This document shows positions 17,479-34,435 of a stretch of DNA of 64,000 nucleotides, one piece after another. Origin of the DNA: a virus; IMG/VR virus record IMGVR_UViG_3300049027_000140, positions 34,116 to 98,115 of that record; one strand, 5' to 3'. The notes below the pieces were generated by a model. It did not search any database and was not told where the DNA came from. It saw only the letters and a program-made list of their open reading frames with translations. The position numbers were made by a program, and so were the translations under genes. Numbering within the stretch: position 1 is the stretch's first letter; each line of letters starts with the position of its first letter.

Positions 17479-17515
17479 GATCGTCTCCCTCCCGGCGCCG
17501 CGCGCCGATGGTCTA

Positions 17516-17537
17516 CTGATATCGTATACGCTATCAG
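17516..17537. promoter_or_regulatory. 22-base operator-like dyad
   Basis: CTGATA (17516-17521) and TATCAG (17532-17537) are perfect inverted repeats around a central CGTATACG (17523-17530). Twenty of the 22 bases are symmetric. The dyad covers the -10 box and most of the spacer of the leftward promoter, the usual place for a repressor site. The XRE protein two genes downstream is the obvious candidate ligand. Confidence 0.65.
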
Positions 17538-17544
17538 CTGTCAA
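17516..17544 (-). promoter_or_regulatory. Leftward sigma-70 type promoter
   Basis: Read on the minus strand, a perfect TTGACA (17539-17544) is followed by 17 bases and TATCAG (17516-17521). The -35 box overlaps the stop codon of the upstream gene (17541-17543). It gives a leader of about 30 bases with a good ribosome binding site before ATG 17478. Confidence 0.65.
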
Positions 17545-20647: not shown

Positions 20648-20652
20648 GTCTT

Positions 20653-20681
20653 ATTAGTAGCGCTTCGCTCTGTTAAGTCAA
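20653..20681 (-). promoter_or_regulatory. Leftward promoter with dyad in the spacer
   Basis: On the minus strand TTGACT (20676-20681), a 17-base spacer and ACTAAT (20653-20658) form a good sigma-70 promoter. TAGCG-N3-CGCTC (20658-20670, plus strand) lies in the spacer and touches the -10 box. Only five bases separate the -10 box from ATG 20647. Confidence 0.6.
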
Positions 20682-20716
20682 CGGCAGCTCGGTGGGAATC
20701 GGCCGACTCCACGCCG

Positions 20717-20744
20717 TTGACATCCTAGCGCCCGTCGCTACCAT
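20717..20744 (+). promoter_or_regulatory. Rightward promoter with dyad in the spacer
   Basis: TTGACA (20717-20722), a 16-base spacer and TACCAT (20739-20744). The dyad TAGCG-CCCGT-CGCTA (20726-20740) lies in the spacer and overlaps the first bases of the -10 box. It diverges from the leftward promoter 36 bases away and would serve the gene at 20781. Confidence 0.55.
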
Positions 20745-20780
20745 TGGCACGCGAGGTGCTATGAGGGAGCGAGGACGAGG

Positions 20781-21128
20781 ATGGTGAAGGGCGTGATGGG
20801 TCGGCCGCGTGGAGCTCCGCTGCCGGCGAGCGAACTGGCCGACGTAGGCGAAGGCATGGTGCGCGTGTTCCTGCGGGTGCCGCCGCCGCTCGCGGAAGGG
20901 ATGGGCAAACCGAGGCAGCGGCCGGTCCACCTGGCGATCGCGGTCGAGCGGCTGCTGCTGACCGAGCCGCGGCCGCGCATCCCCGAGGTGATGGCCGAGG
21001 GGCCCGGTGCGCAGTGGACGGTCCTGCGCTGGCAGGCCGAGCGAATGGAGGAGCGCTTCGGGCTCGCAGATCGCGACCGCGCCTTCCTCCTGGCGATCGA
21101 GCGGTACATCTCAGAGATAGACCAGTAG
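20781..21128 (+). CDS. Hypothetical protein, 115 aa, in the control region
   Basis: ATG 20781 has GAGGA five bases upstream. The protein starts with a basic segment (MVKGVMGRPRGAPLPASE), then a strand (MVRVFLRVPPPLAEGM) and two helices. I see no definite HTH. It sits between two promoters that carry the same dyad, so an autoregulatory role is conceivable. An 8-codon frame (20761-20787) overlaps its start. The family is unknown. Confidence 0.65.
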   Translation: MVKGVMGRPRGAPLPASELADVGEGMVRVFLRVPPPLAEGMGKPRQRPVHLAIAVERLLLTEPRPRIPEVMAEGPGAQWTVLRWQAERMEERFGLADRDRAFLLAIERYISEIDQ

Positions 21129-21174
21129 AGACGCTGCGTTAGGCGGCCCCCCGCAAGAACCGAATCACGGCCCG

Positions 21175-21202
21175 TTGACATCGTAGCGCCATGCGCTACT
21201 AT
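21175..21202 (+). promoter_or_regulatory. Rightward promoter with dyad in the spacer, leaderless start
   Basis: TTGACA (21175-21180), 16 bases, TACTAT (21197-21202). The spacer contains TAGCGC-CAT-GCGCTA (21184-21198). Six bases after the -10 box comes ATG 21209, so the predicted transcript begins at or within a base or so of the start codon. Confidence 0.65.
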
Positions 21203-21208
21203 GTCGAC

Positions 21209-21790
21209 ATGAGCAACGGTGCTGCGGCGGTCTTCGGTGAGGTGGCGGCGAACGACGTGTGTGCGACGGTCTCCGAAGACCGCGCTCGCCGGCTGGAGCC
21301 TGAGTACGCGCGGCTCCGCGAGGTGGCGAAGGGGCACTGGACGGGCGCCAAATACGACAAGGAGCGGCCGTTCACGGAGACGGCGAAGCTCATCCGCAAA
21401 GAGCTCGCCGCGGCGTCGAAGGCTGACGGCGTGCTCCGCGGCGTGAAGTGCACCGTGAAGTCCGGGTGGTCGACGTACAAGCGGTCGCTCGACATCAAGA
21501 TCGTCGAGGTCGCCACCGGGGACAAGATGCCGATCATGAACCCGGCCCGTGTCGAGCGCGAGATGCGGAACCCGCACGCCGCCGTGCTCGGCTGCTGGCT
21601 CTCGAAGCGCGGGAAGGAGATCGAGAAGGCTGTCGAGACGATCGCGCGTCAGTACAGCTACGACAAGAGCGACTCGATGTCGGATTACCATGACACCGCG
21701 TTCCACATCTCGGTGACGTTCGCGAGTGATGTGCAAGCGTCGCACCGCGCCGAGGTCGAGGCCGCCGTGCGGATGGCCGGCCGGGTCTGA
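21209..21790 (+). CDS. Protein with LPD29-like pattern, 193 aa
   Basis: From about residue 60 the order TETAKLIRKELAAA, a strand pair (KCTVKSGW and SLDIKIVEV), then a C-terminal VETIARQYSYD with DTAFHISVTF recalls the LPD29 domain. That domain is known from polyvalent proteins of phages and conjugative elements. Those proteins are often delivered with the DNA and are suspected anti-defence factors; their chemistry is unknown. ATG 21209 is preferred to ATG 21191, which lies inside the promoter. There is no ribosome binding site, consistent with a leaderless message. Confidence 0.6.
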   Translation: MSNGAAAVFGEVAANDVCATVSEDRARRLEPEYARLREVAKGHWTGAKYDKERPFTETAKLIRKELAAASKADGVLRGVKCTVKSGWSTYKRSLDIKIVEVATGDKMPIMNPARVEREMRNPHAAVLGCWLSKRGKEIEKAVETIARQYSYDKSDSMSDYHDTAFHISVTFASDVQASHRAEVEAAVRMAGRV

Positions 21791-21820
21791 CGCGAGCCCA
21801 CCGACAACCCACCACGCCGC

Positions 21821-21850
21821 GCCTGCATCCGGTCCGCCGGTGCGGGCTTT
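21821..21850 (+). terminator. Terminator-like hairpin
   Basis: GCCTGCA (21821-21827) pairs with TGCGGGC (21841-21847) with an inner CC/GG extension, followed by TTT. It lies between the stop at 21790 and the next gene at 21869 and would end or attenuate the upstream transcript. Confidence 0.5.
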
Positions 21851-21868
21851 CGGCGTCGGGAGGGGGCC

Positions 21869-22081
21869 ATGGTGGTGCAGTGGAGCTTGGAGATGCTCGA
21901 GGCGACGTGGCGGCGGCAGGGGCTCGCGGTGGAGCGCGGCGGCATGGTGCGGGCGCGCTGCCGCGGCGAGGTGGTCGAGATTCCGTGCGAGCTCGTGGGC
22001 CGGGCGGCGAGCGGGCGGACGGTGATCTGCGTGGCCGGGCGGCTGGAGCAGTTCGACCCGGAGGAGGTCGTCGATGGGTGA
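21869..22081 (+). CDS. Small hypothetical protein, 70 aa
   Basis: ATG follows GGGAGGGGG. The sequence alternates short strands (MVRARCRGEVVEIPCEL, TVICVAGRLEQF) and could be a small beta barrel with two Cys residues. No family is recognised. Overlaps the next gene by eight bases. Confidence 0.6.
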   Translation: MVVQWSLEMLEATWRRQGLAVERGGMVRARCRGEVVEIPCELVGRAASGRTVICVAGRLEQFDPEEVVDG

Positions 22082-22361
22082 GCAGTACTGGGCCGAGGTG
22101 ACGGGGGAGAACGAGACGTACGTGATCGCCACCGGGGACGCCGCGCCGGTGGCCGAGATCGTGGCGCACTGGACCCGGGAGCGGGAGCGTGCGATCGACA
22201 TCTACACCGGGGAGAGCCTGCCGACGGCGCGCCGGGTCGACCAGCTCATGAGGGCGCTGGACGGCACCCTGCGGCGGACGCAGCACGGGCGGGAGCTCGT
22301 GGCGCGCGGGAGCGACGCGGGGTGGCTGGAGGCGATTCGGGCGACGGGCGCGGTAAAGTAG
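22074..22361 (+). CDS. Hypothetical protein, 95 aa
   Basis: Mixed fold with a strand-rich start (YWAEVTGENETYVIATGD) and helices after residue 25. Last rightward gene of the control region; the next 20 bases lead into a strong hairpin that separates it from the late operon. Function unknown. Confidence 0.6.
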   Translation: MGEQYWAEVTGENETYVIATGDAAPVAEIVAHWTRERERAIDIYTGESLPTARRVDQLMRALDGTLRRTQHGRELVARGSDAGWLEAIRATGAVK

Positions 22362-22379
22362 GGCCCATGGAGCGCGAAA

Positions 22380-22402
22380 ACCGCCGGGACGTGCCCGGCG
22401 GT
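22380..22402 (-). terminator. Terminator of the late operon (probably bidirectional)
   Basis: ACCGCCGGG (22380-22388) and CCCGGCGGT (22394-22402) form a perfect nine-base stem with a five-base loop. On the minus strand the stem is followed directly by TTTTCG, a typical intrinsic terminator for the leftward late genes ending at 22426. On the plus strand it also lies just after the stop at 22361. Confidence 0.8.
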
Positions 22403-22425
22403 CTCGCTCTGCGACTCGGCGGAGG

Positions 22426-22734
22426 CTAACCTCCCGGCGCGCGGCCTCCAGGTGGACCACCGCCGCCGCCTCCACCCTGCCCATCCTCACGCGGCCGCCC
22501 CTTGAATCCGGTGTCCTCGGCATGCGCAGCTCCGCGAGCATCCCGCTCGTCTCCGTGCCGGCCGAGGTCGGACTGGTAGCCGACGAGGTAGGCGCCGTTC
22601 TGCGGGCGCTGGCCGTTGCGCGCTGTCTCCCAGCGGTCCACGCCGATAACGGCGAGGCATTCCTCCGGCGTCGGCGTCCGCTCCGGGTCGGCGTCGGCCA
22701 CGCGGATCACGAGGTGCAGGGTGCGGATGGCCAT
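22426..22734 (-). CDS. Last gene of the late operon, 102 aa
   Basis: A beta-strand opening (AIRTLHLVIRVADADPE) and a Gly/Pro-rich disordered tail (QGGGGGGGPPGGRAPGG). Residues around CLAVIGVDRWETARNGQRPQ suggest a small globular unit. It follows the repeat-bearing virion protein and may be a minor structural or assembly protein. No family is recognised. Confidence 0.65.
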   Translation of the reverse strand: MAIRTLHLVIRVADADPERTPTPEECLAVIGVDRWETARNGQRPQNGAYLVGYQSDLGRHGDERDARGAAHAEDTGFKGRPREDGQGGGGGGGPPGGRAPGG

Positions 22735-22736
22735 GG

Positions 22737-23756
22737 CTACACCGCCCTCTCGTGGACCTTGAAGCTGCCCGGCTCCGCGGCGCGCGCGCCTGTCGTGACG
22801 ACGGTGTACTCGTACACGCCGGCGCCGCGCTCCTCGGTGATCTCGACCTGCACGTCGAACGTCCCCTCCCCGGTACGGATCACGGCATCGCCATCCCCGC
22901 TGGTGGGCGCGACCCCATAGACCAGATCGAAGCTATCCCCGAGCGGGGTGCGCACGCTGACGGTGAGCGACGACGGGTCGACGAACTCGCCGGCGCGTGT
23001 GCGGACGGTGATGCCGGGAATGACGGCGGTGTCGCCGATGTGGAGTCTGGCCATGGGCCTCGTCAGGGTGATCGTGTGGGTGGAGGCGACCGCGGGCAGC
23101 GCGAGCTCGTAGAGGGCGCCTGCGCGCGGCAGCGTGAGAAAGGCGGGCTCGTCGTCTTCGCCGGAGGTGACCAGCGAGCCGGTCGCGTCGGCGGTGAGCG
23201 CCGGGAGCGCGGCGGAGCCGGTGCCGACGAAGCGGAGCGCGCCCGTCGCCGCGGCGACCATGGCTGGCAGCGAGACGGCCGCCGTGCCGGCGAAGACCAG
23301 CGTGATGGTTCCGGCGCCCGCGGCGGCGATACCCGGGAGCGCGGCCGCTCCGGTCCCGGCGAAGCCCAGTGCGCCGGCGGCGTCGCTCTCCAGCACGCCC
23401 AGAGCGACCGCGGCGGCGCCGAGGAAGACCTGCAGGCCGTCGCCATCGGCGGCGGGCGCCGGCAGGGCAGCGGCCCCGGTACCGGAAAACCCCAGCGCCC
23501 CGTCCCCCTCGCTGGCGACCGTCGGGAGCTCCACATCGGCCGTGCCGGCGAAGGTCTGGCTCCCCTCGCCCGCGGCCCCCAGCGCAGGCAGCGCCACGGC
23601 CGCGACGCCCACGAAGACCAGCTGGCCGACGCCGGCGGCGGTCAGGGTCGGGAGCTCAGCCTCGGCCGCGCCATCGACCGGCGGCGGCGCATCGCCGAGC
23701 GGCAGGTCGAGCGGCCCCGCGCCGGGACCGCGGAGAGCGATGTCGAGCGCGGCCAT
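22737..23756 (-). CDS. Repeat-containing virion (fibre-like) protein, 339 aa
   Basis: Residues 29-197 are built from eight repeats of about 21 residues, each reading roughly GTAAVALPAL-AAGXGXLXF, a regular two-strand pattern expected to form a beta solenoid or stacked beta sheet. Residues about 225-339 form a separate Ig-like or carbohydrate-binding-like beta domain (TITLTRPMARLHIGDTAV, TVRTRAGEFVDPSSLTVSV). The gene is next to the 648-residue virion protein near the distal end of the late operon. A fibre or decoration role is inferred from repeats and context. Confidence 0.7.
   Translation of the reverse strand: MAALDIALRGPGAGPLDLPLGDAPPPVDGAAEAELPTLTAAGVGQLVFVGVAAVALPALGAAGEGSQTFAGTADVELPTVASEGDGALGFSGTGAAALPAPAADGDGLQVFLGAAAVALGVLESDAAGALGFAGTGAAALPGIAAAGAGTITLVFAGTAAVSLPAMVAAATGALRFVGTGSAALPALTADATGSLVTSGEDDEPAFLTLPRAGALYELALPAVASTHTITLTRPMARLHIGDTAVIPGITVRTRAGEFVDPSSLTVSVRTPLGDSFDLVYGVAPTSGDGDAVIRTGEGTFDVQVEITEERGAGVYEYTVVTTGARAAEPGSFKVHERAV
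23166..23672 (-). repeat. Eight tandem 21-residue coding repeats
   Basis: Within the gene at 22737-23756, units start near residues 29, 49, 70, 91, 112, 133, 156 and 177. Each carries a Gly-Thr/Ala-Ala-x-x-x-Leu-Pro core and ends in a hydrophobic Phe or Val. Most units are exactly 21 residues (63 bases); one has a two-residue insertion. Confidence 0.75.
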
Positions 23757-23759
23757 CGC

Positions 23760-25706
23760 TCAGCTCGGGGTGAACGGCAGGGTGCGACCCGACTTCGTGC
23801 CGTACTCCGTCTGGGCGTACAGCTCCAAGGTGTCGCTGTAGAAGGTGAACGAGTATCCGCCGCCGACGGCGCTCGTGGTCTGGTAGAGGAGCTCGTCGTT
23901 GTCGGCCCGGTGGACCTTGATCACGGCGCCGGACCCGTCCCCCTCGCTGGCGAAGTCGGAGAGCGTCCCACTCTCGCTGACCGTGATCGTGTGATACGTG
24001 ATGCTCGCGACGAACGACGAGAAGCCGCCGTGGCTGTTGGTGCCGTCCAAGAATCCAGAGATGCGCCACGTGCGCGAGGTCTCCAGCTCGAGCCGGTTCG
24101 GGTCAGGGTCTACCGGGTGCCGGTAGAAGTGCGCTGAGGCGTTGCACCACGGCGTGTTCACCGAGGTCTCGTTCGACACGCAGAAGCCGTTGGTCAGCAG
24201 CGTCTCCCACCCGTCGCCGATCCCCTCTCCGCTCTGGCGCTCGGCCAGGAGCGCGAGCATCCCGCGGCCGGCCTGCAAAAAGTCGATCTTGAAGCCGAGG
24301 CAGGTGACCCAGTATTCGCTCTCTGGGATCGCCGGCTGAAACGTGTAGTCCCGGACCGTGGACGAGCCCACCGCATCCGTCCCGCCGCCCCACAGATCGA
24401 TCGTGTGGTTGTGCGCGCCGGCGCCGTCGGCTGCCAGATCCGACACGTAGTTGAGGATGAGCATCGAGGTCCAGCCGTAGCCGGCGCCGCCGCTGCCCGT
24501 GCTGGTCCGGTACCAGGCCAGCGTGATCTCGTTCTCCCCGCGCGCGAGCGTCACGCCGCTGCCCGCCGCGGCGCCGGAGTCGAACCGGTGGCACACCGTC
24601 TGCTGCCCGGCAGGGCTGTTGTACAACGTGCTCGGCGTGTAGGTCCTGTGGCTTTGCGAGCCGACAGCGATATTGAGGCCGGCGAGCGTGCTGTTGGGCA
24701 TGTTGTAGGCTGCCACCACCCCGCTCTGCTTCAGCGTGATCGTCCCCGGCTCCTCAATGGGCACCACCATCGAGACCTTGGACTGGAGCCCAGATGTGGC
24801 CCCGCCGAAGTTGCCCGGCTCGGTGGGCATCGGCATCTGGAGCGAGTTCAGAAGCTGCGTCGTCGTGTCGTGGTCGTAGGTGTAGGTGACGTAGAGCAGA
24901 GCGAACAGCTGCGGGAACTTCCCTGTCGCGGTGCCGCGCGCCTTGAAGGCGTGCGCGGTGGACGTGGCCATGTCGGTCCGCTTCCAGACGGCCTCCAGCC
25001 ACGGCGACGAGTCGAGCGCCTGCTCGCAGACGCCGAGCGTCACCTCGCTCTCCGCATCGAGCGAGACCGCGAGCGAGAAGTCCGTGGTCCCCGAGGCGTG
25101 GCCCTCGTTCGCCATCACCACGAAAAAGATGTCCCGGATGGTGATGCCCGCCTCCGGGAGGAGCCCGCCGACGCCGGTGAGCTGCGGGATCTGGTTCGTC
25201 CCGATCTCCGCGAGCGAGTCGGTCAGCGTGCTCGCCGCACTCTCCAGCGGGATGCAGACGCTCTTCGTGCGGGTGCTCGCGCTCGCGTCGTCGTAGCTGT
25301 ACGTGATGACGAGCCGCGCGCTGTGGTTGATGGTCGGAAGCGTGCCGAACTGCACCGCGACCTGGACCGAATGCGAGGTGCCGGTGAAGTTGGTCTGGAG
25401 GTAGCTCGTGACGTCGCGGCGGAACCTGAACGAGTCCTGGTCGCCGCTGGTGCCGATGGTCTCGACCTTCGACTCGTCGTTCCACGCGACGGCATCGACT
25501 CGGATCCCGATGAGCCGGCTGGTCATCGACGTGGCCGCGGTCTCGTTGCCTCGGCAGGCGACCTCCAGGTACGCCGACACGATGGTGCGGCTCGACGTCT
25601 CCGCGATGGCGACGGTGATGGCGCCGAACTCCCGGCGCGTGGCCGCGGCGAGCGCGGTGGCGTCGGTGGTCCAGCCGTAGGTGACGGTGCTGGTGCGGAT
25701 CGCCAT
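23760..25706 (-). CDS. Large beta-rich virion protein, 648 aa
   Basis: Almost entirely beta-strand and Ser/Thr/Gly-rich, without membrane segments or enzymatic motifs. Short recurring phrases (HSVQVAVQFGTL, ARLVITYSYDD, ALLYVTYTYDHD, SMLILNYVSDL) suggest three or more related beta-sandwich domains. The C-terminal 100 residues (about 560-648) resemble a small carbohydrate-binding or adhesin domain (SGAVIKVHRADNDELLYQTT). It is the largest product in the distal late operon, so a surface or fibre component is likely. The family is not recognised. Confidence 0.7.
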   Translation of the reverse strand: MAIRTSTVTYGWTTDATALAAATRREFGAITVAIAETSSRTIVSAYLEVACRGNETAATSMTSRLIGIRVDAVAWNDESKVETIGTSGDQDSFRFRRDVTSYLQTNFTGTSHSVQVAVQFGTLPTINHSARLVITYSYDDASASTRTKSVCIPLESAASTLTDSLAEIGTNQIPQLTGVGGLLPEAGITIRDIFFVVMANEGHASGTTDFSLAVSLDAESEVTLGVCEQALDSSPWLEAVWKRTDMATSTAHAFKARGTATGKFPQLFALLYVTYTYDHDTTTQLLNSLQMPMPTEPGNFGGATSGLQSKVSMVVPIEEPGTITLKQSGVVAAYNMPNSTLAGLNIAVGSQSHRTYTPSTLYNSPAGQQTVCHRFDSGAAAGSGVTLARGENEITLAWYRTSTGSGGAGYGWTSMLILNYVSDLAADGAGAHNHTIDLWGGGTDAVGSSTVRDYTFQPAIPESEYWVTCLGFKIDFLQAGRGMLALLAERQSGEGIGDGWETLLTNGFCVSNETSVNTPWCNASAHFYRHPVDPDPNRLELETSRTWRISGFLDGTNSHGGFSSFVASITYHTITVSESGTLSDFASEGDGSGAVIKVHRADNDELLYQTTSAVGGGYSFTFYSDTLELYAQTEYGTKSGRTLPFTPS

Positions 25707-25709
25707 GGG

Positions 25710-26015
25710 TCAGCGGGGCGGCTCGACGTGGCCGATGGCGCGGAAGACGATGCCGGGGAGCGCGCGCGGGACGCTCGGCACCGGCGTAGCGGCCTGCTCC
25801 GGCGGGGGCGCCAGGCGCGCTGCGAGGTCGGCGTGCTCGGGCGCGAGCTCCACGGCGACGGGCACGACGCGAAGCCAGCCCGGGCCGTGCAGCCGGTCGA
25901 GGCGCGCCTGCTCGGCAGCGAGGCGCTCGTCGGACGGCGGCGCCGAGAAGAGCGGGGCGAAGATGGTCCCGCCGCGCTGGTGACGGAGGGCGAAGAGGCC
26001 AGCCTGCGCGCTCAT
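25710..26015 (-). CDS. Hypothetical protein, 101 aa
   Basis: ATG 26015 overlaps the upstream gene (ATGA); a longer frame is a shadow. The sequence is Pro/Ala-rich in the second half and begins MSAQAGLFALRHQRGGTIFA. It probably accompanies the neighbouring virion proteins. Function unknown. Confidence 0.6.
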   Translation of the reverse strand: MSAQAGLFALRHQRGGTIFAPLFSAPPSDERLAAEQARLDRLHGPGWLRVVPVAVELAPEHADLAARLAPPPEQAATPVPSVPRALPGIVFRAIGHVEPPR

Positions 26016-26410
26016 GAGCCGATCGGCTGCGAGACGGTGAAGGACGAGATGGATATCTCGGCGCCGACGTCCCAGAGCAGGCCGGGGAACTCGATGTCCC
26101 CACCGCCGCCCGTTGCCGTGACGGTGAGGTCGGCAACCGCGGTGCCGCCGCTCGTGACCGCGCGCGCCCACGCCACGGTCCCCTGGGTGCCGACGGTGCC
26201 GGCCACGATGGCGTTCGCAGTGGCGCTGGCGCTCGCAGCGGCCGCGAAGGCATCCGCGTTGAAGTCGAGGGTGACGAGCAACTCCTGGGTGGAAATCGCC
26301 GTCTCCGGCGTCGCGGGCCTCGATCCGTCGTAGAAGCGGAGCTCGCCGCCATCCAGCAGCGCCGTGAAGACGTTGATCATTGCGTTGCGAGAGGCGACAG
26401 ATGCACGCAT
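26012..26410 (-). CDS. Beta-rich virion-associated protein, 132 aa
   Basis: Contains INVFTALLDGGELRFYDGSRPATPE, a phrase I have seen in small phage structural proteins of unknown role, then Ala/Thr/Gly-rich strands. A second ATG eleven codons in (before INVFTALL) is an alternative start. The position next to fibre-like genes suggests a minor tail component. Confidence 0.65.
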   Translation of the reverse strand: MRASVASRNAMINVFTALLDGGELRFYDGSRPATPETAISTQELLVTLDFNADAFAAAASASATANAIVAGTVGTQGTVAWARAVTSGGTAVADLTVTATGGGGDIEFPGLLWDVGAEISISSFTVSQPIGS

Positions 26411-26424
26411 GCGTGTCCTTTCGA

Positions 26425-26480
26425 GCCGGCTCGGCCGGCGTGAGGCGATGGGGGGCGCCGACGCGAGAGGGCGTCAGCGC
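26425..26480. other. Two GC-rich hairpins between lysis and distal virion genes
   Basis: GCCGGC-TCG-GCCGGC (26425-26439) and GCGC-C-GACGC / GCGTC-A-GCGC (26455-26480) fold into adjacent stems in the 98-base gap. Neither has a T-run, so they may be RNA processing or attenuation elements rather than terminators. Confidence 0.35.
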
Positions 26481-26508
26481 GAGGAGGCTTGATGGTGGCG
26501 AGCGGCGC

Positions 26509-27222
26509 TCAGCCCGGGAACGAGCGGTAGACGCCCGTCATCCGGTGGGCGTACTGGTCCGGCGTTTCGGTGAACCACACGAGTTCGCCGAGCTTGAGCG
26601 CGGCGTCGTATGGGCGGCCTGCGTCGAAGAGGGGCAGCGCGTCCTCGTAGGTCTTCGACATCACGCGCCAGTAGTCCGCCGAGCCGGCCTGCGGCGTCCC
26701 GTGCGCGCGAAACAGCATGTCGCGCCACTCCCACCGATCCGGGTTCTGCTCGATGCGCTCCTGGACGCGGATGACGTACACCGAGCCCTGCCAGCGGAAG
26801 CCAGTGATGTTGCCGAAGTTGTTGCAGTAGACGTGTTGCCCGCGGCCGTTCTCGAGCGCCACGTGGGCCCAGGCGACGGCGAGGCGCGACCGTGTCGGCT
26901 GCGCACCGAAGACCGCTTCGTGGCCCCGGGCGAGAGCGTTGGCGAGGCCGACCTCGGAGAGCGGCGTATGCACCTTCTCGACACGGCGGCGCTCGGCCTG
27001 CGGCGGCGTCGCCTCGTCGGCGAGCTCGGCTCGGGTCTGCGGCCCGACGATGCCGTCGGCGTGGAGGCCGCGGGCTGCCTGGAAGGCGCGCGCGGCGGCC
27101 TCGGTCTTGCGGCCGAAGATGCCGTCGCTCGGACCAGGGTCGTGCCCGCGGGCGCGGAGGAGGTCCTGGACGGCGGCGACGTCCGCGCCGGAGGAGTCAC
27201 GGCGAAGGATGCGCGGCCTCAC
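26509..27222 (-). CDS. Glucosaminidase/lysozyme-like murein hydrolase with N-terminal peptidoglycan-binding domain
   Basis: Residues 4-68 are a PG_binding_1 domain (VAAVQDLLRARGHDPGPSDG, HADGIVGPQT). Residues about 100-237 resemble GH73-type glucosaminidases: VALENGRG with Glu124 as likely acid, followed by CNNFGNITG and a long helical lobe. It would cut glycan strands of the host wall. GTG 27222 overlaps the upstream stop (GTGA). Together with the endolysin at 28052-29470 it forms a two-enzyme lysis set; a virion-borne entry role is an alternative. Confidence 0.8.
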   Translation of the reverse strand: MRPRILRRDSSGADVAAVQDLLRARGHDPGPSDGIFGRKTEAAARAFQAARGLHADGIVGPQTRAELADEATPPQAERRRVEKVHTPLSEVGLANALARGHEAVFGAQPTRSRLAVAWAHVALENGRGQHVYCNNFGNITGFRWQGSVYVIRVQERIEQNPDRWEWRDMLFRAHGTPQAGSADYWRVMSKTYEDALPLFDAGRPYDAALKLGELVWFTETPDQYAHRMTGVYRSFPG

Positions 27223-28055
27223 GCGGCCCCCTTCTGCCGCAGCGCGCAGTTCGGCGGGCACGTCCGGTGGCACGCTCCCGCGGGCGCGCCCTCCTTCTCG
27301 GCCAACCGGTGGCGAGCCTTCTCGAGCGCCCCGTTGAGGCGCGTGCGGTCCGCCTCCACCGTGTCGATCGCGTAGAGCAGATCCCGGAACTCGGCCTCGT
27401 GGTGCTCGTGCGGGACCTCGAGACGAGCCTGGATCACACGGGCCCACGTCTCCCCGTCGTGTGTCGCGTGCAGGTGCGCGGTCAGCGCGAGGACGACGGA
27501 CTCGAGCGCGGCTACCTCGCGAGAGACACGGCGGGTCAATGCGTCGAAGCTGCGACCCCCGCGCTTGAACGAGATGGCCGCCGGGAAGAAGTCCCGGATG
27601 TCGCGCTCGGGAATCCGCGTAGCCCTGACCGTCGGCGTGCGGCCGGGTCCCGTGCGGACGAGACCGAACATCGCCTCGATCTCCCACAGCCCGAAGTCCT
27701 CGGTGTGCGAGATGCACACCCGATCGAAGCGCTCGGTGAAGCGCGCGGCCTCCTGAAGACCCGTTGCGATCTTGACCACCGCGTCGCCCAGAAACCGCCA
27801 CTCCCTGAACTGGGCCATGTACTGGCCAGGCACCTCGCCGTCGTAGAGGTCGTGGCTGATCTGGACGAGTTCAGCCCGATCCCCCTCTGTGGCAGCGATC
27901 ATGATGGCACGCCGCCCGGGGTGCTCGATGCGCCAGAAGGCGGCGCGAACGAGGATCTCCCGCTTCCGACGGCTGCGCTCGCCTTCGAGCATGAGGCATT
28001 CCTCGTCCCCCTCCACGAAGCGCGCCTCGAAGCTCTCGAGCGTGGCGTCGGTCAT
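27219..28055 (-). CDS. Unknown protein in the lysis cluster, possible relic P-loop fold
   Basis: A 278-residue protein starting at an ATGA overlap (28055). The first 150 residues follow the strand order of a terminase-type ATPase: CLMLEGERSRRKREILV where a P-loop would be, RRAIMIAATEGDRAEL as the next strand, and FDRVCISHTEDFGLW at the Walker B position. Both catalytic motifs are missing, and no sequence identity is strong. The last 60 residues are helical and end with a Cys cluster (CHRTCPPNCALRQ). The function is unknown, and its place between two murein hydrolases is odd. Confidence 0.6.
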   Translation of the reverse strand: MTDATLESFEARFVEGDEECLMLEGERSRRKREILVRAAFWRIEHPGRRAIMIAATEGDRAELVQISHDLYDGEVPGQYMAQFREWRFLGDAVVKIATGLQEAARFTERFDRVCISHTEDFGLWEIEAMFGLVRTGPGRTPTVRATRIPERDIRDFFPAAISFKRGGRSFDALTRRVSREVAALESVVLALTAHLHATHDGETWARVIQARLEVPHEHHEAEFRDLLYAIDTVEADRTRLNGALEKARHRLAEKEGAPAGACHRTCPPNCALRQKGAA

Positions 28056-29470
28056 CCGTCGAGCCATCCAGCGCCGCGGAATTTCGGGTCCCGGAGATCA
28101 CGATCCATCTCGGCCACGCGGTCACCCTTCGCTCCGCTGTTGCCCTCGACCGTTTTGACCTTCGTGCCGCTGACGGTCCGGCGCTTGATGCCGACGTGGC
28201 CGCGCCAATCGTCGCGCGTCGTGCGGTCCCAGAATATGAGCATCCCGTCGCGGAGTTTGAGCGGGTCCTTGAGCAGATCGTCGGCGTCGATGAAGCGCCC
28301 GGCGCGCCGGAACTGCGCCTCGAGCGTCTTCGCGCCCGCGCTCCCGATGACGGGCGCCACGGTACCAATCGCCTCTGCCGCGTCGAGGATCCACGAACTC
28401 GCCGTGACGGAGCACCAGTCAGCAGGCGGCTCGATGTCGAAGCGGCGGAGATATTGCCCGATGCGCTCGCCGTCGTTGGGCCGCTCCTCGCAGACGCCGG
28501 CCTCGAGGTCGGCCACGGCGCGCGCGAGCGCGGCGGCCGCGAGTCCATCGGGCGGCGCCGCCGGCTGCGGCCGAGGCCGCACCATCTCCGCGGCGGCCCG
28601 CGTCTTCGGCCCGACCACACCGTCGGCCTTGAGGTGTGCGTCGCCCTGGAACTCCTTCGTGGCGCGCTCGACCAGCGGCCCGAACGCGCCATCAGGCGCG
28701 CCGGGGTCGTAGCCCAGGGCGATCAGGCGCTCCTGCCAGGCGAGAACGTCGGGCCCCTTCGCGCCGCGCTTGAGCGCCCGCGGCGGCTCGCGCTCGGTCG
28801 AGGGTGGCTCCGGCGTGTCGCGGCTCTCGGTCGGCGCTGCGCCCCCGCTCGCCATGGCGTCCGCCGCGAACGTGGGCCCCCACCCATCGCGCGCGGCGAC
28901 GTGCTCGGCCTTGTCGTCTGTCGCGACGTTGTGCGCGCGCACGAGAAAGCGCCCGCCCTGCCCACCGGCGAGCTTCAGGACCTCCTCGGCGACCTTCGTC
29001 GTGCTCGCTACGTTGCCGTAGGTCCGGACGTCCGTGTGCCCGATCCAGAGCGTCGAGCGCCCCGCCTTCGCCTCACGCGCCCAGTCGACCAGCCACTGCA
29101 CGCCCGCGTCGCTCGCGGTGTTGTCGCGGTCCAGCGTCGTGTGCCCGCCGTCGAGCAGCACGAGGCCGGCGAGCTCGGCGCGGTCGGCCGGCCGCATGGC
29201 GCGTGCGAGGGCGTAGGAGCCCGACCAGCAGACGAGCCACGTCGAGGCGTAGCCCTGCCGCGGCGGCTTGTACTTCGCGAGAAGGCCGGGTAGCACGCGG
29301 CCGTTCTGGAGGCAGGCGTGGGCCAGCGCGTCGTAGGCGGCGCTCATGCCGGCGTACGGCGAGCGGATCGGCACGACGTCCACGTCGAGACCACGAGCCG
29401 CGGCGGCAGCGCCGAACATGGGCGCGACGTCCGGCGTGGCGTGCGCGAGGAGGATGAGGTGGTGGCTCAC
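28052..29470 (-). CDS. Multidomain endolysin: hydrolase-like domain, peptidoglycan-binding domain, CHAP/NlpC-like amidase
   Basis: Three regions are visible in 472 residues. Residues 1-200 look like an alpha/beta hydrolase: a first strand LILLAHA, a nucleophile elbow CWSGSYALAR (Ser83), a strand GLVLLDGG and a late His in DDKAEHVAARD. Residues 232-293 are a PG_binding_1 domain. Residues 330-472 resemble CHAP/NlpC peptidases, with DWCSV (Cys353), RGHVGI (His425) and VEGNSG (Glu442). It should cleave peptide bonds of peptidoglycan, and the first domain may add esterase activity. GTG 29470 is the start, in the overlap. It lies beside holin-like and spanin-like genes. Confidence 0.8.
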   Translation of the reverse strand: MSHHLILLAHATPDVAPMFGAAAAARGLDVDVVPIRSPYAGMSAAYDALAHACLQNGRVLPGLLAKYKPPRQGYASTWLVCWSGSYALARAMRPADRAELAGLVLLDGGHTTLDRDNTASDAGVQWLVDWAREAKAGRSTLWIGHTDVRTYGNVASTTKVAEEVLKLAGGQGGRFLVRAHNVATDDKAEHVAARDGWGPTFAADAMASGGAAPTESRDTPEPPSTEREPPRALKRGAKGPDVLAWQERLIALGYDPGAPDGAFGPLVERATKEFQGDAHLKADGVVGPKTRAAAEMVRPRPQPAAPPDGLAAAALARAVADLEAGVCEERPNDGERIGQYLRRFDIEPPADWCSVTASSWILDAAEAIGTVAPVIGSAGAKTLEAQFRRAGRFIDADDLLKDPLKLRDGMLIFWDRTTRDDWRGHVGIKRRTVSGTKVKTVEGNSGAKGDRVAEMDRDLRDPKFRGAGWLDG

Positions 29471-29802
29471 GGGGTGGCTCTTGGCGGCGGGATGGTCAGC
29501 GCGTCCGGCTCGGTCGGGTCGGGGTCCGGCGGCTCCTCGCCACGCAGGGCGGTGCCAGGGAGCGGCCGCGAGGGAGCGCTCGCTCCCGGCGTAGCTCGGC
29601 TGAGCCGCTCGTCGATGCCGGCGTGGCCCCGCGCCGTGATGTCGGCGTCGGCGCGCTTGGGGAAGTTGTCCGTCCTGCGCGGCGTGGGCGTGGCCGGTTT
29701 CGGGGTCGGCTTGGCGGCCACGCGGTTCACGAGGAAGGCGCCGATCGCGGCGACAGCGACCTCGGCGAGGAGCGTGCCCAGTTTGTCCCAGGGGAACTTC
29801 AC
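29467..29802 (-). CDS. Small membrane protein of the lysis cassette, 111 aa
   Basis: GTG 29802 overlaps the lipoprotein gene upstream. Residues 5-25 form one membrane helix (KLGTLLAEVAVAAIGAFLV) followed by a basic Pro/Thr/Lys-rich tail. It could be a second holin-like or antiholin-like protein, or an inner-membrane spanin partner for the lipoprotein upstream. The evidence is position and the single helix only. Confidence 0.6.
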   Translation of the reverse strand: MKFPWDKLGTLLAEVAVAAIGAFLVNRVAAKPTPKPATPTPRRTDNFPKRADADITARGHAGIDERLSRATPGASAPSRPLPGTALRGEEPPDPDPTEPDALTIPPPRATP

Positions 29803-30305
29803 GAGCAGGCCTCCATTGCGCCCTGGTTGGGCGTGATGGCGGCTTGCCGCGGCGCTGGCGCCCGCGGCTGCCCGAGCGTCTCGATGGCGCGCCAGAGGTC
29901 CTCGCTCGCGATCGCGAGGCGGACGACGGCCTGCCCGAGCACCAGCGCGTTGGGCCGGCGCCCTGCTGCGACGGCGGCGCGCGCGGTCTCCGCGGTGGCC
30001 TTCGCGACGAAATAGGCGGCCTTGATCGCGTCGTAGGCGTCCCAGGCTGGCAGGTAGCGGGCGTGGAGTTCGGCGATCTGGCGGTGGCCCGTCGCGGCAT
30101 CCGGCGCGGTCGCCTCGATCCGCTCGCGCTCGGCGTCGTGCATCGCCTTGAGCACGCGGTGCCCCTCGGTGATGGCCACGGCGGCGGCGTCCAGTGCGTC
30201 GTCCACGTCGGCGAAGGCGTCGGCGGTCTGCGCCTGGCTCTGGCTGCCGGCGCACCCCGAGAGCAGCGCCAGCGCGAACACGGCGAGCAGGACGAGCGCC
30301 TTCAC
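29799..30305 (-). CDS. Lipoprotein of the lysis cassette, possible outer-membrane spanin
   Basis: The start MKALVLLAVFALALLSGCAG is a textbook lipoprotein signal with the lipid-modified Cys at residue 18. The mature part (about 150 residues) is mostly helical, with long Ala-rich helices. Location among holin and endolysin genes suggests an Rz1-like role in disrupting the outer membrane. The size is larger than most Rz1 proteins, so the call is tentative; a periplasmic accessory lipoprotein is the alternative. Confidence 0.7.
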   Translation of the reverse strand: MKALVLLAVFALALLSGCAGSQSQAQTADAFADVDDALDAAAVAITEGHRVLKAMHDAERERIEATAPDAATGHRQIAELHARYLPAWDAYDAIKAAYFVAKATAETARAAVAAGRRPNALVLGQAVVRLAIASEDLWRAIETLGQPRAPAPRQAAITPNQGAMEACS

Positions 30306-30724
30306 CGCGGCTCCTTGCCGGGCAAGGACATCGCCACCGGAGGCGCCTCCGGGATCGTGTCCTGCGGCGCGCCAGGCTCCAGCGAGAGCGGCACGTCGAG
30401 TTCGGGGATGGGCGACGGCGCGGCGGCGGGTGGCACCGCGGGCGCGTTCGCCTTCGCCGCCTCCGCCTGCGCGAGCATCGCTCGGACGTCAGCGACCGCC
30501 TTCGCCAGGTTCTTGAGCTCGGCGATGAAGCGCACGTGGTCTCCGGAGAAGAACGCGGCGAGCGCCCCGCATACGGCGCCGACAACGAGCGACCACAGCT
30601 TCACCGACGGGTGCGCGCCAGCCGCTTCCGCGACGGCGTAGGCGATGAAGCCGAACGCGCTGAAGAAGCCCAGGAGCGACGAGCGCCAGGACTGCGTGAT
30701 CGAGCCGTTGAACTTCAGGTCCAT
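30302..30724 (-). CDS. Holin-like protein, 140 aa
   Basis: Two membrane helices are clear: LLGFFSAFGFIAYAVAEAAG (about 17-36) and LWSLVVGAVCGALAAFFSG (about 43-61), followed by a charged helix (IAELKNLAKAVADVRAM) and a Pro-rich tail. This hairpin topology with a soluble C-terminus fits holins that open the inner membrane for the endolysin. It overlaps the downstream lipoprotein gene by four bases and shares one base with the gene upstream. Confidence 0.75.
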   Translation of the reverse strand: MDLKFNGSITQSWRSSLLGFFSAFGFIAYAVAEAAGAHPSVKLWSLVVGAVCGALAAFFSGDHVRFIAELKNLAKAVADVRAMLAQAEAAKANAPAVPPAAAPSPIPELDVPLSLEPGAPQDTIPEAPPVAMSLPGKEPR

Positions 30725-31242
30725 CACTTCACCCTCGGCAGCGGCATCATGGGCGCGGCCGCCGCCGACGACGCCTCCGCCGGCGGCAGGATTCCCGGCG
30801 GGCAGCAGACGCCGCTGCGGCAGCTGTCCGAGCCGTCGCTCACATCGCACGGCGTCCCGTCGGCCAGCACCGTCCAGCGGCACGTGCCGCGCCGGCCGTA
30901 CGGGTCCGGAGGGCTGTGCGGCTCCGCGAGGTCGCAGACGTCCTGGCTGCACTGGCTGCCGTCGAAGCAATCGGAGTCGTTCTCGCAGGTCGTGTGCTTC
31001 GGCGCGCGGACCTCGCAGCCGCCGGGCTCACGCGGGCCCTCCGAGGCGCCCGCAGACGTCGAGGCGACGCTCGCGGCCGCGCTCTCAGCGGTCTCCGCGG
31101 CGCCGCCAGCACCGGAGGCGCCGACGCTGGTCGAGGTGGTGGCCTCCGGCTGCGGGCCGGGCTCGGGGCGGCAGGTGGCGATCAGGGCGCACAGCGCGAG
31201 CGTCGCCGCCCCGCCGATGGGGTACAGGGTGGATCTCTGCAT
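30724..31242 (-). CDS. Secreted Cys-rich protein of myxobacterial style, 172 aa
   Basis: An N-terminal hydrophobic signal (PIGGAATLALCALIATC) may be a signal peptide or a non-standard lipobox ending at Cys24. A Ser/Ala/Gly-rich spacer follows (about 30-72). The folded part contains CENDSDCFDGSQCSQDVCD and, later, PCDVSDGSDSCRSGVCC, the dense Cys/Asp pattern common in secreted proteins of myxobacteria. It is the first gene of the lysis block, immediately left of a rightward island. An envelope role or host-derived cargo is inferred. Confidence 0.7.
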   Translation of the reverse strand: MQRSTLYPIGGAATLALCALIATCRPEPGPQPEATTSTSVGASGAGGAAETAESAAASVASTSAGASEGPREPGGCEVRAPKHTTCENDSDCFDGSQCSQDVCDLAEPHSPPDPYGRRGTCRWTVLADGTPCDVSDGSDSCRSGVCCPPGILPPAEASSAAAAPMMPLPRVK

Positions 31243-31296
31243 CAGGTCTCTGTGAGGTTGGTTTCAAAGAGCGGAGGCGCGACTGGGCGAACCCGG

Positions 31297-31313
31297 CAGC
31301 GCCGTGCTATCGG
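31297..31313 (+). promoter_or_regulatory. Candidate extended -10 promoter with degenerate dyad
   Basis: CAGCG-CCG-TGCTA (31297-31309) resembles the dyad of the control-region promoters with two mismatches. It overlaps TATCGG (31308-31313), which is preceded by TG at -15/-14 as in extended -10 promoters. ATG 31320 follows six bases later without a ribosome binding site. The -35 box is not recognisable. Confidence 0.4.
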
Positions 31314-31319
31314 TCGGGG

Positions 31320-31574
31320 ATGACCGAGAAAAAGGCTCAATATGCAGGAGTGCGGTGGCAGTACGCTCTGTTCGCCCAGCTGGGCGACACGATCGCGACC
31401 ACGAAGGAGCTGAATAGACTGGGCGCAGATGGCTGGGAGGCCTACGCCGTTCTGCTCGACAACAACGGTGAGCGCGTCCACTTCTTCAAGCGCCCCATCG
31501 CCATCGATCCGCCCCCGGATGGCGGCCGCGCCGCTCGTCCTGCTCCCATCGACCCGCCGCCCGATGGCGGCTGA
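31320..31574 (+). CDS. DUF4177-like protein with duplicated tail, 84 aa
   Basis: VRWQYALFAQ, LNRLGADGWEAYAVL and VHFFKRP (11-59) match the DUF4177 layout seen also at 19314-19496. The tail carries two copies of an 11-residue unit (PIAIDPPPDGG at 59-69 and PAPIDPPPDGG at 74-84), the product of a short DNA duplication. The gene opens a rightward island within the leftward late operon. Role unknown. Confidence 0.7.
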   Translation: MTEKKAQYAGVRWQYALFAQLGDTIATTKELNRLGADGWEAYAVLLDNNGERVHFFKRPIAIDPPPDGGRAARPAPIDPPPDGG

Positions 31575-31595
31575 CCGCGCCCGCAGCGCCATGCC

Positions 31596-32276
31596 GTGGT
31601 AAGCCTCGGCGGCGTGACGCCGCTCTCCCCGCTCACTCTCATCCTCGCCGCCTGCGTCGTGCTGGCGTGGGCTCTCGCCCGCGGCTGGCGCGGACGCCCG
31701 CAGTGGCCGTTCTATCGGCCCGTGGCGCTGCTGCTCTCGTGGGCGCTCGCGACGTCTATCGCCCGTGGCGCCATCCAGCACTGGGCGCTGAACCCGGCGC
31801 GTGAGGCGATCGGGCCGGAAGCGCCGTACAGCGGCCAGGGCCACGCCTGGTACCTCGCCGAGGTGGCCATCCGGCTCTCGTGGCCCTTCGCGATCTTCGG
31901 CGCGACGCTGGCCGTGTACCTGCGGCGCCGGCCGTGGTGGCTTGTGCCAGCGTGGGCGGTCGCCGCCGCGGCGCTCTGCTGGAGCTACCCGGAGGTCCGC
32001 CGAGAGCTCCAGTGGCACCTCGAGGCCGGCGTGGCCTCCGCCTGCTGGTTGGCCTCAGCGTGGGCCGTGTGGCGCTGGTACGCGGGCGACGAGAGTGCGC
32101 CAGTGGCCTCGCACACGGCCATGATCCTCGTGCTCGCGGCCCAGCTGTCGGTGCTCGCCGTGACGCAGTGGAGCGGCAATCCGGTGGAGCACTGGACGAG
32201 CGCCCGTGTCACACACGGCGTCATGTACGCGGCCGTGCTAGTTTACCAGGCGCGGAAGTTCTGGGGGGAACGCTGA
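31596..32276 (+). CDS. Polytopic membrane protein, 226 aa
   Basis: Six hydrophobic helices are visible, for example LSPLTLILAACVVLAWAL, VALLLSWALATSIA, WPFAIFGATLAVYL, AWAVAAAALCWSY and TAMILVLAAQLSVLAV. Charged loops separate them. GTG 31596 is the longest start; GTG 31614 is also possible. It lies in the rightward island and is coupled to the next small membrane protein. A superinfection exclusion or conversion function would fit such a position but is inference. Confidence 0.7.
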   Translation: MVSLGGVTPLSPLTLILAACVVLAWALARGWRGRPQWPFYRPVALLLSWALATSIARGAIQHWALNPAREAIGPEAPYSGQGHAWYLAEVAIRLSWPFAIFGATLAVYLRRRPWWLVPAWAVAAAALCWSYPEVRRELQWHLEAGVASACWLASAWAVWRWYAGDESAPVASHTAMILVLAAQLSVLAVTQWSGNPVEHWTSARVTHGVMYAAVLVYQARKFWGER

Positions 32277-32554
32277 TGGATGTACAAGCCCAGATCGCCG
32301 AACTGCTCAACACCGTCAGGATCGGAGGAGGCGTCGCGCTCGCGGTTCTCGCGGCCACGGCTGGCGCCAACTTCCTGACCTTCCGGCGGCTTCGACGACT
32401 GGAGGACCGTCAGGAGCGCCTCGTGCAATGGCAGGAGCAGCACCGGCCGGCCCTCGAGCGCCTCGCTCTGGAGCAAGACGCCTCCTCCGACCCCGCGCGC
32501 GCGGCCGCGGTGAAGCGTCCGCAGCGCGGCGGCAGCCGAGAAGCGCCGCTCTAG
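32276..32554 (+). CDS. Small membrane-anchored protein, 92 aa
   Basis: An N-terminal amphipathic stretch, one membrane helix (IGGGVALAVLAATAGANFL, about 16-34) and a charged helical tail (LRRLEDRQERLVQWQEQH). The end is basic and disordered. It ends the first island and overlaps the convergent gene by four bases. The helix-plus-coiled-coil design is common in small phage membrane proteins of unknown role. Confidence 0.65.
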   Translation: MDVQAQIAELLNTVRIGGGVALAVLAATAGANFLTFRRLRRLEDRQERLVQWQEQHRPALERLALEQDASSDPARAAAVKRPQRGGSREAPL

Positions 32555-32727
32555 CCCGGCGGCGCCGACGGCGCTGGGTCGCGGAACGGCGGCGGGCGGC
32601 GCGCAGCGAGACGCAGCAGCCCGTCGAGGCTGCGGTTCATCTTGCGGAGCTCGGCCTCGATCTCGTCGATGCCGGCCTCCTCGGGCGCGGGCGGCTCGCT
32701 GGGCACGGCAGGCTTCTCGTCCGGCAT
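32551..32727 (-). CDS. Small hypothetical protein, 58 aa
   Basis: ATG 32727 overlaps the stop of the gene upstream (TGATG). An acidic helix (GIDEIEAELRKMNRSLDGLL) is flanked by Pro-rich ends. Function unknown. Confidence 0.55.
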   Translation of the reverse strand: MPDEKPAVPSEPPAPEEAGIDEIEAELRKMNRSLDGLLRLAARRPPPFRDPAPSAPPG

Positions 32728-33275
32728 CAGCGCCTCCGGCTCCCGGGGCCGCCGCCGTTGATCCAGCCGTCGAGCCACCCCTCGAGCTTGGCCAGGCGCT
32801 CGGCGAAGTCCTTGATCCCGCGCAGCACCGTGGCCTTGAGCCGCTCGAAGGCGCGCGCGAGTCGGTCGAGGCGCTCGGCGAGTCGGGTGGTCTCCGCCTT
32901 CGCCTCGGCCACCTCGCGCAGCACCTCGGCTCGCAGGTCGGCGATGCGGGCGTCAACCTCGGCGCGGCTCGGCACATCGCCGGGGATCGACGGCGCCGGC
33001 GCGCGCTGGGCCTGCGCGGGCCGCAGCGCCGCGGGCTCACGCTGCGTGGCCGGCTCGTCGGTGGCCTCCGGGAGCGCCGGCGGCGGGGCCACGGGGTGCT
33101 GGCGCTCCAGCTTCCTGGACTCGCGGCGATCGGCGGAGATCTTGAGGTACATGTCGACCACCAGCGGACCGTACTTCGCGACGACCGCTCCGGCCGCCGA
33201 GGTGACCGCGAGCCAGAAGGGGAACCAGCCGTACGAGTCCTGCGCGATGGGCTTCAGCGGCTCGATGGGGCTCAC
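32727..33275 (-). CDS. Membrane-anchored coiled-coil protein, 182 aa
   Basis: Residues 15-35 form a membrane helix (YGWFPFWLAVTSAAGAVVAKY), a Pro-rich linker covers about 58-95, and residues 104-170 form a long coiled coil (AEVDARIADLRAEVLREVAE, TTRLAERLDRLARAFERL). It resembles i-spanin or tail-associated tether designs but is not next to the other lysis genes. Function unknown. Confidence 0.65.
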   Translation of the reverse strand: MSPIEPLKPIAQDSYGWFPFWLAVTSAAGAVVAKYGPLVVDMYLKISADRRESRKLERQHPVAPPPALPEATDEPATQREPAALRPAQAQRAPAPSIPGDVPSRAEVDARIADLRAEVLREVAEAKAETTRLAERLDRLARAFERLKATVLRGIKDFAERLAKLEGWLDGWINGGGPGSRRR

Positions 33276-33312
33276 GCTGGCGGCGCCGCCGCGCGCTGGC
33301 TCGGGGTGAGGC

Positions 33313-34407
33313 TCACGAGCCTTCCTCCCACGGCTCGAGCGTGATCACGAGCACTCCAGCCGGCATGATCACGCCTGTCCCCACCTTGGTGAGGCTGAAG
33401 CTCAGGTAGTAGTTCTCGTCCAACGGCAGCTCCGCCATGAACTCCTGGAGAGTCAGCGTGGCCGGGAGAAACGCCGTCCATGTCCCCGTCGAGTTGCTTC
33501 CTGACGGAGTCGTGCTGCCAATGGCGGCGTACGTAAGCGCTGAACCGTCGAACACCTGCCGGACGCGCACAGACAAGGTGGCGTAATTGGTGGCGTTGGC
33601 GGCCACCCCTGAGCGTGGATAGAACTTGGCGCCAACGAATCGCCACTGCCCCGTAAACACACCGCAGATCGGGTATTCGACGGTTTCATCCCCCGCCGCC
33701 GTGTCGCTGTGCTCCTTGTGGACGCGGATCTCTTGGGTGCGGAGGGTCTCCAGCAGCGGGCTCGACACAGTGACCTCGCCGCCGGTCTCCTCCGCCACGA
33801 TCTCGCCGGAGCCAACGACGGAGGTGACGCCGCCGCCTCCTCCGCCCAGCCCGGCCTCGATGATCCGCAGGTTCGCGCGCTGGTGCTTCGCCCACTTCTC
33901 GGCGCTCCCGCCGAACTGCCCCGCCTCGCGATGCCCTAGGTCCAGCAGCCCGCTCGGGCTCGGCACGGAGATCGCGGTGGCCTCGTCCACGGCAGCCCCG
34001 CCGTTGACGATGAGCCTGGTCATGTACTTGCCCCACAGGCTCAGCGTGACGGGCTGAGGCGCCGTGCGACCGAGGACGTAGAAGACCGTGTGGCCGTCGA
34101 CCGTGGAACTCGTCCATCCGGTAGGCGTCGGGTAGCCCGGCGGCGCGGAGAGCTCGAGCCTCGCGCCGCTCCAGCCGGTCGTGTTGAGGAACGAGAACTG
34201 CACCTCGTCGTCGAGGGCCGCGGTGATGCCGCCGGTCGTCGGCGCGCCGCCGTTCACGCTGGCGAGCAGCGTGGCGTTCAGGTTGGGCATGTGGTGTCCG
34301 GGTCCGAAATGCAGGCGGCCCGCGCTCCGGAGAGGCGGGCCGCTGGGGGGGGGCGTTGGAGGTGGAGGCTGGTTCGCCAGATACTGAACGCGCGTCACGT
34401 AGACCAC
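33313..34407 (-). CDS. Tail fibre or receptor-binding protein, 364 aa
   Basis: After a Pro-rich start, residues 40-140 and 220-364 are beta-rich and Ser/Thr/Gly-rich, joined by a short helical link (AEKWAKHQRANLRIIEAGLG) and a poly-Gly hinge near 190-195. Such hinge and trimer-like organisation is typical of fibres. It starts at GTG 34407 without a clear ribosome binding site; ATG 39 codons in is an alternative. Located in the fibre region after gp48-like and fibre genes, separated by a rightward island. Confidence 0.65.
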   Translation of the reverse strand: MVYVTRVQYLANQPPPPTPPPSGPPLRSAGRLHFGPGHHMPNLNATLLASVNGGAPTTGGITAALDDEVQFSFLNTTGWSGARLELSAPPGYPTPTGWTSSTVDGHTVFYVLGRTAPQPVTLSLWGKYMTRLIVNGGAAVDEATAISVPSPSGLLDLGHREAGQFGGSAEKWAKHQRANLRIIEAGLGGGGGGVTSVVGSGEIVAEETGGEVTVSSPLLETLRTQEIRVHKEHSDTAAGDETVEYPICGVFTGQWRFVGAKFYPRSGVAANATNYATLSVRVRQVFDGSALTYAAIGSTTPSGSNSTGTWTAFLPATLTLQEFMAELPLDENYYLSFSLTKVGTGVIMPAGVLVITLEPWEEGS

Positions 34408-34429
34408 GCCTGGCGGGCGTCGCTAGTCT
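34400..34429 (+). promoter_or_regulatory. Rightward promoter of the second island, with dyad
   Basis: TAGACC (34400-34405), 18 bases, TAGTCT (34424-34429). TGGCG-GGCGT-CGCTA (34411-34425) is the control-region dyad with one mismatch and the same five-base spacer as at 20726-20740. Six bases after the -10 box comes ATG 34436, and no ribosome binding site is present. Confidence 0.5.
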
Positions 34430-34435
34430 GCGGAC

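Follow-up and report, generated by a model that had tools for sequence, protein, structure and literature searches.

A putative promoter-embedded operator cluster around a candidate tandem ribbon-helix-helix repressor gene in a contractile-tailed phage

Are the short dyads at promoters of phage accessory genes operators of one regulon spread over the genome, or do they belong to a local switch, and which protein would bind them? A preliminary description of the DNA studied here had listed five such dyads at -10 boxes (20658, 20726, 21184, 31297, and 34411) and had assigned them to a single repressor regulon over scattered accessory genes. We found all five strings at these positions. The first three form a set, the dyad at 34411 is a possible addition, and the dyad at 31297 is at chance level. 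Because 31297 is at chance level and 34411 is unproven, the one-regulon reading is not supported as it was worded; the reliable sites lie within 550 bp, and our analysis points to a genetic switch that is local and specific to this virus, not to genome-wide control.

The window is the whole stretch analyzed, 64,000 nucleotides corresponding to positions 34116-98115 of a 98,115-bp virus record (G000); window coordinates are used unless "record" is stated. The G000 sequence is 71% G+C, and matches to terminase, portal, major head protein, and tail sheath identify it as a contractile-tailed phage. Two relatives were compared: G001 (101,652 bp), which is syntenic with G000 across most genes, and G002, a 34,245-bp fragment with a few genes in common. 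As G001 has an integrase gene, the phage group is probably temperate. No DNA resembling G000 was found in the phage records searched, and neither the 21209-21790 protein nor the tail sheath had relatives in GTDB genomes.

Dyad-bearing promoters in the window

The dyads at 20658, 20726, and 21184 flank the gene 20781-21128 and sit in the spacers of TTGAC promoters, with the right arm within the -10 box (Table 1). The -35/-10 spacer is 16 nucleotides long at all three promoters, and in each of them CGCTA lies 14 nucleotides past TTGAC, and the -10 box begins with the TA of this arm. Two of the three promoters (20726 and 21184) carry a perfect TAGCG-N5-CGCTA. The dyad at 20658 is weaker, with one mismatch if the arms are read with N3 and two mismatches in the N5 register, where the left arm is CAGAG. 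A role of the dyads as transcription terminators was ruled out, as they lie upstream of the start site inside the promoter and have no T-run.

Table 1. Positions of the genes, promoters, and dyads discussed in the text (window coordinates)
Feature	Position	Strand	Description
Separate promoter upstream of 17478-16966 and the XRE gene	17516..17544	-	Spacer dyad GATATCGTA/TACGCTATC, 17518-17535
Leftward target	20129..20647	-	172 aa, first gene of the leftward accessory unit; orthologue in G001
Promoter-operator of 20129-20647	20648..20681	-	-35 TTGACT 20681-20676; -10 TACTAA 20659-20654; dyad 20658-20670
Promoter-operator of the RHH gene	20717..20744	+	-35 TTGACA 20717-20722; -10 TACCAT 20739-20744; perfect TAGCG-N5-CGCTA, 20726-20740
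Candidate regulator	20781..21128	+	115 aa, predicted single-chain tandem ribbon-helix-helix (RHH), N-terminal MGRP segment
Promoter-operator of 21209-21790	21175..21202	+	-35 TTGACA 21175-21180; -10 TACTAT 21197-21202; dyad GTAGCGC-N3-GCGCTAC, 21183-21199
Rightward target	21209..21790	+	193 aa; 70% identical to G002 31851-32435
Candidate further member	34411..34425	+	TGGCG-N5-CGCTA; -10 TAGTCT; weak -35 TAGACC; ATG 6 nt downstream

A motif scan of the whole record, as proposed in the preliminary description, placed the full promoter pattern far above chance. TTGAC-N4-TAGCG-N5-CGCTA occurs twice against 7e-5 expected, and TTGAC-N14-CGCTA three times against 0.073 expected, both expectations being independent-base estimates from the base composition of the 98,115-bp record. 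TTGACN{10,14}CGCTA gave three matches versus none for the reversed control pattern, and exact TAGCG-N5-CGCTA is present twice in the record versus zero times across 12 first-order Markov genomes. Looser dyads, in contrast, are not enriched in the record: with one mismatch there are 7 versus 5.7 expected (for N5 alone, 1 versus 2.8), and with two mismatches at N3-N5 there are 120 versus 145 expected. From the sequence, the dyads at 20658, 20726, and 21184 are a real set of putative promoter-embedded operators.

The ATGs at 20647 and 21209 begin 7 nucleotides past the -10 box, leaving no space for a ribosome-binding site, and both starts are kept in relatives; the RHH gene does have a leader. 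The position of the ATG in two of the three genes implies that the mRNAs of 20129-20647 and 21209-21790 are leaderless. An alternative start of the latter gene at the ATG at 21191 is unlikely, as this ATG falls inside the dyad. Neither target product matched an antirepressor family; that of 21209-21790 matched phrog_1926 ("released from the phage upon host infection", E 5e-7) and phrog_10415, both weakly.

Beyond the cluster, the dyad at 34411 has one mismatch and shares with 21184 both the register and the 6-nucleotide gap to the ATG, and for this reason we keep it as a possible member. Within the record, this geometry, TANNNT closely followed by ATG, has just 10 occurrences. CAGCG-N3-TGCTA at 31297..31309 (+) was rejected, since it has two mismatches, is at chance level, and lacks a TANNNT -10 box at the position where one would normally lie. 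The product of gene 31320-31574 matches the NCBIfam Sp36 family (E 6e-8, below the family cut-off); in G001, the counterpart has just the C-terminal tail in common with it and carries a perfect promoter dyad, GCACGGC-GCA-GCCGTGC.

One dyad-bearing promoter, with its dyad at 17518-17535, was absent from the earlier list. This dyad is more likely the own operator of the XRE module than a member of the TAGCG set. The module (16733-17544) is a two-gene unit encoding a 170-aa protein and an XRE protein that resembles addiction-module antidotes, with an 18-bp promoter dyad, and its genes have no homologue in G001 apart from a 21-residue chance-level match.

The candidate regulator and an HTH alternative

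In the AlphaFold model of the 20781-21128 product (pLDDT 81.3), a strand-helix-helix unit occurs twice in one chain. The top fold match was the F-plasmid TraY (Z 9.0, 3.3 A, 95 residues), followed by DndE (Z 6.9) and VirC2 (Z 3.4). Because the fold aligner used often gives Z values of 7 to 8 by chance, we put weight on the highest-scoring matches (TraY and DndE, Z 6.6-9.0) belonging to one fold class and lying well above the unrelated matches (Z <=3.2). A sequence profile search of the PDB gave the CopG-family RHH protein 6xrw_B (E 0.0096), and no Pfam match was obtained up to E 5. The product is thus predicted to have the RHH (MetJ/Arc/CopG) fold, doubled in one chain.

A similar arrangement is found in G001, where three TGGCCA-N5-TGGCCA spacer dyads (2859, 2942, and 3366, within 0.55 kb) surround a tandem-RHH gene and precede the orthologue of 20129-20647, one of the dyad promoters driving the RHH gene. 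For the G001 RHH protein, BrnA_antitoxin_add was matched at E 0.014, which falls far short of the cut-off, and PF01402 was found in neither G000 nor G001. The model of the G001 protein is weak (pLDDT 67) and gave the same order of matches, TraY first, with a lower Z (7.5); the models of both proteins were each built from a two-sequence alignment. The two proteins are 24% identical and gave no mutual tblastn match, so that they are taken as putative orthologues from their position, their MGRP start, and the predicted fold. No other relative of the RHH proteins was found in phage records or in IMG/VR, and the 34-kb G002 fragment yielded no identifiable RHH gene.

The motif itself cannot name the binding protein, because in unrelated temperate phages TAGCG-N5-CGCTA forms the apparent operators of an HTH+S24 repressor. 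Among the 59 viral contigs of our scan for the TAGCG promoter pattern, one group represents CI-type operator sets: G004, G005, G006, G009, and G012 (L086, L079, L083, L094, and L093, respectively) carry TAGCG-N5-CGCTA in TTGAC promoters around genes for an HTH+S24 repressor and a Cro-like protein, in several cases as pairs with spacings of 31-32 and 58-59 bp. PF01402 gave one match in the other TAGCG-bearing phages, in G007. For this reason, the main rival explanation assigns the dyads, as operators, to an HTH repressor of the XRE/CI type, which could be the XRE protein (16733-16966) or the product of the HTH gene at record 30487-31032; the RHH gene would then be just a target. That the promoter of the XRE module carries a related dyad fits this explanation, but that dyad differs from the TAGCG one, and the XRE gene is without a homologue in G001, which keeps the architecture. 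The main HTH control region of G000 (record 31588-31616) and its G001 counterpart (37491-37519) have other promoter dyads, GTATTG-N9-CAATAC and CTTAAC-N4-GTTAAG, respectively, the former next to the HTH gene of record 30487, and G000 has no paired or tandem operator arrangement. On this evidence we regard an HTH binder as unlikely. The preliminary description had named both the XRE protein and the 20781-21128 product as candidate binders; the latter, a predicted tandem RHH protein whose gene is located between the sites and has a positional counterpart in G001, is the better candidate. The same description had seen no dyads at the early operons, which holds for the TAGCG motif, although the early control region has the GTATTG-N9-CAATAC spacer dyad of its own.

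We consider it probable that the locus is that of an autoregulated RHH repressor, with the three TAGCG dyads as its operators, separate from the main HTH lysogeny switch. The cluster lies about 23 kb from the main HTH repressor region in the record. The parts of the earlier proposal that are supported are that the operators are embedded in promoters, that the regulator is local, and that the system is separate from the lysogeny switch, whose dyad differs. We infer binding, repression, autoregulation, and a role in lysogeny for the 20781-21128 product as follows. The predicted single-chain tandem RHH repressor would bind the three dyads, and each bound dyad, filling the -35/-10 spacer and reaching the -10 box, would keep RNA polymerase off the promoter. 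Repression would act on the repressor's own promoter, on the divergent leftward unit (20129-20647 onward), and on the rightward gene 21209-21790, two of the three promoters yielding leaderless mRNAs. The locus would then be a second, moron-like control region, with an operator sequence specific to each phage.

Comparison with known systems

In phage P22, the RHH repressors Arc and Mnt control immI, a moron-like island near the late genes (PMC2629481), and Arc autoregulation is reported in work cited there. Arc contacts TAGA boxes via strand residues, and its operators consist of TAGA-type half-sites (PMC12645479). As in immI, the G000 locus would place an RHH repressor in a second control region that adjoins late genes and is distinct from the main lysogeny repressor. 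The G000 dyads lie between the -35 and -10 elements of three promoters, where the RHH protein would bind, and the Arc and Mnt operators occupy the same interval. By analogy, the G000 locus may work like Arc in immI. Unlike that system, G000 has an RHH protein predicted to be doubled in one chain, has no identified ant or sar counterpart, and is a G+C-rich phage with several dyad codes in one genome. Because no antirepressor was identified and the repressor is in tandem in one chain, we do not take membership in the Arc/Mnt type as shown.

F TraY is a monomer that holds a whole RHH dimer fold (PMC12117103), and this protein (PDB 9F0X-9F12) is the best fold match of both the G000 and G001 models, which are likewise predicted to be single-chain tandem RHH proteins. 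TraY acts at oriT in the relaxosome, whereas the 20781-21128 gene, whose product has no Pfam match, is in the genome of a contractile-tailed phage. The product is a candidate phage repressor of the single-chain tandem RHH type, its best structural matches being proteins of conjugation (TraY), of DNA modification (DndE), and of T-DNA transfer (VirC2).

The stoperators of Cluster A mycobacteriophages, bound by the phage repressor, have a phage-specific motif that diverges with the repressor among related phages (PMC6550527, PMC9283540), and the motif here likewise differs between related phages. Stoperators, however, are asymmetric, number 20-30 per genome, and lie mostly outside promoters, whereas G000 has two perfect and few one-mismatch sites, which are dyads, local, and, where reliable, inside promoters. 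The five CI-type phages with HTH+S24 repressors share with G000 the same dyad in TTGAC promoters. Their loci have paired operators and a divergent Cro-like gene, and no RHH protein was identified there; in G000, neither an HTH+S24 gene nor site pairing was found at 20.6-21.2 kb. A literature search for this exact motif, or for accessory operators at scattered positions, returned nothing matching.

Different dyads at orthologous promoters

In G001, TTGACTTTGTCCATTACGTGGCCAAAGTAGAGGCATG lies upstream of the 20129-20647 orthologue, which is itself frameshifted (L006 3393-3907). In G002, the orthologue of 21209-21790 (31851-32435) has the promoter TTGACAACGTTCTACGATCGTATATACTGCTCTGTATG, which retains the -35 element, the 16-bp spacer, a dyad, and the leaderless start, the dyad being TATACGATCGTATA. 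At orthologous promoters, therefore, the promoter, the symmetry, its position, and the start codon persist and the dyad sequence changes. This fits a phage-specific protein and would not be required by a host sigma factor. The uncultivated phages thereby offer a testable case of repressor-operator divergence.

These data also bear on the explanation that the dyads are a mere feature of strong promoters (an extended -10 or a spacer element) or chance symmetry in G+C-rich DNA. As this explanation would have it, some spacer dyad is present in most of the exact TTGAC promoters of the three records. A sigma-factor element would, however, be constant at orthologous promoters. Spacer-dyad promoters number 3 in G000 (including the early-region promoter and excluding 20658, whose arms are weaker), 2 in G001, and 8 in G002, whereas Markov-shuffled genomes mostly gave 0 or 1 per 98-kb genome. 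We judge this explanation to be very improbable.

About 12 near-identical TATACGATCGTATA promoters are scattered at small genes over 24-34 kb in G002 (L015), most of them preceding leaderless-looking small genes; a scattered regulon with another dyad thus exists in this relative. This observation, together with the register, ATG spacing, and single mismatch of 34411, favors one repressor coordinating scattered accessory islands across the phage genome. Against it, 31297 is at chance level, the reliable sites of G000 and G001 are restricted to about 0.55 kb, and the G002 dyad resembles a second dyad class at other G000 and G001 loci; we hold such a regulon to be decidedly improbable.

This second class comprises ATACGTCGCGACGTAT at G000 record 4403-4577 (upstream, outside the window) and GATACGCCATGGCGTATC at G001 64343-64960. 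Its dyads are in divergent promoters with -35 TTGCGC/TTGCCA, several with leaderless geometry. By sequence resemblance, TATACGATCGTATA may belong to this class; if it does, the 21209 gene would answer to one regulator in G000 and to another in G002, instead of to a single regulator that has diverged. TAGCG, ATACG, and the HTH switch dyad occur side by side in G000. In a tentative reading, which we find possible without favoring it, the accessory genes of this phage group share a standard promoter cassette that is leaderless and has an exchangeable operator slot as its spacer, so that orthologues keep the promoter but swap the dyad and hence the repressor between phages, with several dyad codes per genome. 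If so, accessory genes would shift between regulons with the promoter unchanged.

The product of G001 64521-64820 has a weak HTH_26 match (E 0.045), and the G002 promoters at 24078 and 25998 carry CACGTG dyads.
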